Shown here: piece by piece, positions 32,907 through 34,054 of the stretch
Layout: every line of letters starts with the position of its first letter
How positions within the stretch are numbered: the stretch's first letter is position 1
Assembly (NCBI GenBank): GCA_002717805.1
Contig: PBBS01000004.1
Location: 20,613 to 63,546, forward strand
DNA length: 42,934 nt
Direction of reading: 5' to 3'
Origin: Chloroflexota bacterium
GTDB taxonomy: Bacteria; Chloroflexota; Dehalococcoidia; Lucifugimonadales; UBA2985
Program-made: the position numbers and the translations under genes
The notes under the pieces: model-generated
The model's input: the letters and a program-made list of their open reading frames with translations, nothing else
The model's database searches: none
Told to the model about the DNA's origin: nothing

Positions 32907-33956
32907 CTAAGGCAAAATGTTTATGTGAAACTGTCCTTCTAGATCAACAACATCCCCAATCACTGACGAAATATTGTTGCCGGATTTTCCGAGTTGACCA
33001 ATCAACAGTTCTAATTTAGATTCATCCACAGAAATAAGTAACCCACCCGAAGTCTGTGGGTCACAGAGAATCAATTTCATATGATCCTCCAGAGATGGAT
33101 CCCAGCTTACCAAATCTGCCACATAATCTATATTCCGATTCGTTCCGTCGGGGAAAATGTTTGATTTTGCTAACTCCAGAGAACCATCCAGAATTGGGAC
33201 TTTAGACGAATATATATTGGCAGCAACACCAGAACTAGTCATCATATCTTTCATGTGACCCAATAAGCCAAATCCGGTAATATCTGTACAAGAATTAACT
33301 CCAACATCCATCATAGCTTCAGATGCATCTTTGTTAAGCAGACTCATAGACTCTAATGCTTTATCCATTGTCAGCTTATTCACTACATTCTGCTTGCCTC
33401 CCGTGGTTATCAACCCTGTGCCTATAGGTTTCGTCAAAATCAATTTGTCTCCAACCTTAGACCCAGATTTGGTTACCTCCTTACCAGGCTCCAAACTACC
33501 TATCACAGCCATTCCATACTTGGGCTCTTCATCATTTATAGTATGCCCACCTACAATTATTACTCCGGCTTCGGCGGCTTTTTCTTGTCCACCTTTCTGG
33601 ATCTCAGACAGTATTTCTATAGGCAGATCGCTAGGGAAACAGGCTATGTTTAAAGCCAAAAACGGCTTACCTCCCATAGCATAAATATCGCTAATAGAGT
33701 TAGCAGCAGAAATAGCCCCATAAAACCATGGATCATCTACTATTGGCGGAAAGAAATCAACAGTTACAACTAATGCCTGACTTTCAGACATCTTGTATAC
33801 AGCGGCATCATCGCCGGTGGCAGAACCCACGATTAAATTCGGGTTTTCCGGTATATTCAGTTGACGCAGAACCTGAGCCAAGTCACTTGGACTAAACTTG
33901 GCAGCTCAACCTGCGCACTTTGTTAGATCTGTAAGCCGTATGCTATGGTGATCCAT
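32907..33956 (-). CDS. selD: Selenide, water dikinase SelD, itself a selenoprotein (Sec17)
   Basis: SelD makes selenophosphate from selenide and ATP, the selenium donor for Sec-tRNA and for selenouridine. Read from ATG 33956 (AGGAAGG seven bases upstream), the frame gives MDHHSIRLTDLTKCAG, then TGA as codon 17 (complement of 33906-33908), then AAKFSPSDLAQVLRQL and the rest of a normal SelD, 349 residues in all. Codon 17 is where E. coli SelD has catalytic Cys17, and Lys20 follows at its known place, so the TGA is read as selenocysteine. GSATGDDAAVY, GGKPFLALNI and ITGFGLLGHM are family blocks. An internal start at 33881 would remove the active site. Confidence 0.94.
33874..33905 (-). promoter_or_regulatory. 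Candidate SECIS hairpin after the selD UGA
   Basis: Just after the UGA, GCCAAGU and ACUUGGC can pair around a 12-base loop, and UGA itself can pair with the UCA beyond. Another fold pairs GCCA/UGGC and AGUC/GACU with a CAAGU loop 16 bases after the UGA, nearer to bacterial SECIS spacing. Neither loop clearly shows the G expected at its start. Confidence 0.5.
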
Positions 33957-34054
33957 AAACTACCTTCCTATCCTAATATTAGTACTGTAATCAATATTAA
34001 CACACACTTAATTAATCAAATAAAGAGTTGCAAATACTATACGAGTTTAACAAT

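Follow-up and report, generated by a model that had tools for sequence, protein, structure and literature searches.

The selD locus

The window, by which we mean the whole stretch of 42,934 nucleotides analysed here, carries on its minus strand a selenide, water dikinase gene (selD) with an in-frame TGA codon close to its start. The neighbouring genes are ordinary (trpA, type I chorismate mutase, DAHP synthase and family III CoA transferase), and an Rfam scan of the window returned four tRNAs only. The features of interest are as follows.

32907..33956, minus strand: selD, selenide water dikinase, 349 aa with a predicted selenocysteine (Sec) at residue 17
33906..33908, minus strand: codon 17, an in-frame TGA predicted to encode Sec and lining up with the catalytic Cys17 of E. 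coli SelD
33915..33917, minus strand: Cys14 codon, giving a CAGU (CxxU) motif
33963..33969, minus strand: Shine-Dalgarno-like AGGAAGG, 6 nt 5' of the selD ATG
33861..33881, minus strand: bSECIS-like hairpin UUGGC-U-CAG-GUU-CUG-C-GUCAA, with covariation in relatives and one U.C mismatch in the stem

Translation of positions 33956-32907 on the minus strand with TGA read as U gives a protein of 349 aa with a single U at codon 17 (33908-33906) and the N-terminus MDHHSIRLTDLTKCAGUAAKFSPSDLAQVLRQL..., confirming the in-frame TGA reported at 33906-33908 by an earlier, sequence-only reading of this DNA. The product matches the NCBIfam model TIGR00476 over its full length (362.2 bits against a curated equivalog cut-off of 125, E 2.2e-108), and both AIRS domains were found by profile search. 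That reading had also placed the TGA at Cys17 of E. coli SelD with Lys20 following, and alignment with chain 3u0o_A agrees: there is no offset, U17 falls on Cys17 and K20 on its Lys20. The segment U17-A-A-K20 therefore presents the catalytic Cys or Sec followed by Lys three residues on, as is required of members of the SelD family.

Conservation of the TGA codon in related genomes

Codon 17 is TGA in all 15 of the closest related loci, which are 52-69% identical to the window SelD; three of them come from the same family and the others are mostly named Chloroflexi, SAR202 or Dehalococcoidia. We use the label SAR202-like for this marine-type lineage on the basis of the names of these closest SelD loci, not of a species tree. 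SelD is present in four of the five family genomes, this one included, and each of the four has one TGA, while in the fifth (G004) the SelD profile meets only a distant kinase-type match and a tRNA-Sec was not found at the threshold used. A scan of public genomes found TGA at the codon in every named Chloroflexi, SAR202 or Dehalococcoidia SelD retrieved that covers it. Among the distant bacterial SelDs compared, the codon is TGA, TGC or TGT and nothing else, with TGC or TGT only in the 16 non-TGA SelDs. In addition, the residues upstream of the TGA (IRLTxLxxCAG) are kept in the alignment of relatives. A CxxU motif occurs in 19 of the 34 TGA-type SelDs compared, including all those from SAR202 and Dehalococcoidia. 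The motif, CAGU in the window, is uniform in the SAR202/Dehalococcoidia set and in three Anaerolineales SelDs and is absent from the other Sec-SelDs compared.

Genes for selenocysteine decoding

A tRNA-Sec, selA and selB had been predicted from the TGA, and all three are present in the genome, which is a single draft assembly, 87% complete. The tRNA-Sec lies at C10:66875-66968 (65.5 bits with Infernal, over the cut-off) and is called tRNA-SeC(tca), that is, with anticodon TCA, by ARAGORN. A Cys-type thioredoxin gene (67017-67316) adjoins it on the same strand (G000:C10:66875-67316; L017, L114). Profile search placed selA at C10:45248-46582 with 516.8 bits. The selB gene was recovered as a 538-aa C-terminal piece at C2:22188-23780, on a contig of 23,781 bases; its start is missing because the gene runs off the contig end. 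This piece aligns to profile positions 81-573 and, at 229.9, stays under the cut-off of 242, the shortfall being most likely due to the missing first 80 profile positions, and all other elongation-factor models score far under their own cut-offs on it. The genome thus holds the tRNA-Sec, SelA and SelB genes that go with a bacterial selenoprotein, selB being represented by this piece.

A candidate SECIS hairpin in selD

According to the published bSECIS model, the element has an apical loop of 3-9 nt with an early G, a stem of 4-16 bp, a distance of 16-37 nt from the UGA and a minimum free energy (MFE) of <=-7.5 kcal/mol (PMC13188914). The hairpin in the window starts 24 bases past the UGA and its GUU apical loop starts 33 nt past it; its loop, early G and spacing fit that model, and its apex, GGUUC, conforms to the loop pattern published as N1-G[G|U]N-N2. 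At -6.0 kcal/mol it is weaker than the published -7.5 limit, whereas the same hairpin in close relatives (-10.5 to -18 kcal/mol) is within it.

Eighteen TGA-SelDs could be aligned gap-free. In this alignment the nine-pair hairpin (columns 28-48) has 95.7% of cells paired and four pairs with double changes, and its covariation score is 0.248, where shuffling gives a mean of 0.085 and slid versions reach 0.075 at most; the rows were picked partly for showing the hairpin, so these values lean towards structure. The 18 rows exclude both copies of one Dehalococcoidia genome (L026, L036) and the majority of the remoter TGA-SelDs. In a synonymous-codon test the window hairpin was not significant (z -0.58). 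Mean z was -1.6 for the SAR202-type set (16 sequences, window included), -1.1 for 34 TGA SelDs and -0.45 for 16 Cys SelDs, and the difference between TGA and Cys SelDs is suggestive only (p = 0.067). It is likely that this downstream hairpin is the SECIS of selD.

Other selenoprotein candidates

In this genome, a search with the AhpC-TSA family picked out three genes that contain a single TGA each. The sequence-only reading had expected further genes with in-frame TGA, and two Prx-like genes and one thioredoxin/NHL (Trx/NHL) gene were indeed found, each carrying its single TGA in the place of a redox Cys. One Prx-like gene, at C19:25252-25632 on the plus strand (L117), reads SFTGGUTHQC and has the same TGA in two other family genomes (L121, L122); the other, a UxxC gene at C16:50773-51144 on the minus strand (L118), reads YRGHWUSYC and likewise shares its TGA with two other family genomes (L125, L126). 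A formate-dehydrogenase-type TGA (TUHAP) was seen in the relative G001 (L127, G001:C48), and none turned up in the genome of the window, which is 87% complete. There was no Rdx/SelW match in this genome, and its carboxymuconolactone decarboxylase and thioredoxin families had no TGA copies. Three relatives (G001-G003) have SelW-like genes with one TGA (L104-L106). A coding-potential screen of the window and 44 kb near selA, selB and the tRNA-Sec gave apparent adjacent-gene pairs only; this screen is blind to Sec near the N-terminus and missed SelD itself. The list of selenoproteins comes from targeted searches and selected stretches of the genome and is incomplete.

The third gene, at C5:41132-42559 on the minus strand (G000; L119, L131), encodes an NHLRC2-like protein with thioredoxin_8 and NHL repeats and reads WTYCUVNC. 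Matches occur in 72 of 294 genomes of the class, many of them with one TGA. Thirty loci were retrieved; in 11, this genome included, TGA stands exactly where CCxxC has its second Cys (the ten relatives are L133, L134, L138-L144 and L149), and the others have TGC or TGT there. All 11 TGA loci share the hairpin CUUCCGC-AGUU-GCGGAAG, with z values of -3.2 to -6.3 against synonymous codons; two of them have U-A in place of a C-G pair, a double change. A comparable hairpin was found in one of the ten Cys versions tested (L137). The 119-family table consulted in the 2026 catalogue (PMC13188914) does not list the CUxxC Trx/NHL family by name, and fragmentary relatives could have been filed under 'Trx-like' in an ocean survey. 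It is somewhat more likely than not that thiol-redox chemistry in the SAR202-like lineage involves a network that uses Sec, comprising a Sec-SelD of the CxxU type, selenoproteins of the Prx-like kind and an NHLRC2-like CUxxC Trx/NHL selenoprotein family, so far uncatalogued, with a strongly conserved SECIS-like hairpin. The CUxxC Trx/NHL protein may be more interesting than SelD itself.

Interpretation of the in-frame TGA

A TGA within a coding frame might be an artefact of sequencing or assembly, or might mark a Cys-type SelD that is decaying through a nonsense mutation, and the use of one incomplete draft assembly leaves room for such a fault. Nevertheless, the same codon is TGA in independent family genomes and in named SAR202 and Dehalococcoidia genomes, which argues against random error or a decaying stop, and the SelD frame is otherwise unbroken and earns the full SelD score, making this explanation extremely improbable. 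Nor is it credible, save as a very slim chance, that translation starts downstream of the TGA. A mechanical open reading frame of 324 aa does begin at TTG 33881, but its product would be a SelD without the catalytic loop, lacking residue 17 and Lys20, and the conserved pre-TGA residues and the Shine-Dalgarno-like motif 5' of the upstream ATG would be left unaccounted for. The frame that stays open through the TGA would also be compatible with a genome-wide change in the meaning of UGA, to Trp or Gly for instance, instead of its recoding to Sec. However, hardly any coding continuity across TGAs emerged from the screen of the window and the stretches near it, and its strongest cases look like adjacent genes with a normal end at TGA, such as an hsdS-like/hsdR-like pair. 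Moreover, the in-frame TGAs that were found sit at Cys or redox-motif positions and the genome has a tRNA-SeC(tca), so reassignment too has a negligible probability.

A separate matter is whether Sec-SelD is right but the signal for SelB lies elsewhere, for example in a stronger CCAAGU/ACUUGG hairpin directly after the UGA. Of the folds of the 57 nt from the window, this hairpin has the lowest energy (-14.8 to -16.7 kcal/mol). It was set aside because it is not conserved in relatives, which retain the downstream hairpin with compensatory changes. A signal other than the downstream hairpin is therefore unlikely, though less remote than the preceding alternatives.

The gene, its conserved TGA and the decoding genes are observed, and from them we conclude that the selD product almost certainly works as a selenophosphate synthetase and is a selenoprotein in its own right, with UGA codon 17 read as Sec; both Sec insertion and enzyme activity are inferred. 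In the mechanism that we propose, SelA would make Sec-tRNA-Sec and SelB would bring it to the hairpin just 3' of the UGA, where the ribosome would read codon 17 as Sec. Sec17 and Lys20 would then work in the N-terminal selenium-binding loop, turning selenide and ATP into selenophosphate. As selenophosphate would feed SelA, SelD would need its own pathway to be made.

Very probably, this lineage decodes UGA as Sec, and gene callers that treat UGA only as a stop would therefore shorten or miss SelD, and several redox enzymes with it, in the genomes of this lineage. The analysis may thus serve better annotation of an uncultured group and gives a lead to an apparently unlisted CUxxC Trx/NHL selenoprotein.

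Comparison with known systems

Sec-SelD is listed as experimentally verified and as second among prokaryotic selenoproteins in breadth of distribution (PMC13188914). Both forms of SelD, with Sec and with Cys, have been mapped across life, with a Cys-to-Sec conversion in Pasteurellales (PMC4561486), and SelD is among the commonest selenoproteins of sea water (PMC2398784; PMC1088965). The window SelD with its predicted Sec is a further case of this well-known and common bacterial form. Like the Sec-SelDs of bacteria and archaea (TIGR00476, UxxK), it has a predicted Sec in the catalytic loop, Lys three residues on, and selA, selB and selC in the genome; it differs from them in lineage only. SAR202 and Chloroflexota are not discussed in the texts searched. 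No description of selenoproteins of SAR202 was found in the literature searched, which is weak evidence of absence. Single-domain Sec-SelDs with an active-site CxxU make up about 5.6% of the marine Sec-SelDs in the Global Ocean Sampling data (PMC2398784). The window protein, with its CAGU, resembles these in its active site, but CxxU is uniform in our SAR202/Dehalococcoidia set. Finally, the window SelD and the Cys-SelD of E. coli (3u0o) belong to the same family, share the active-site layout and align over most of their length, whereas the E. coli enzyme has Cys at residue 17 and therefore does not need the Sec pathway for its own synthesis.
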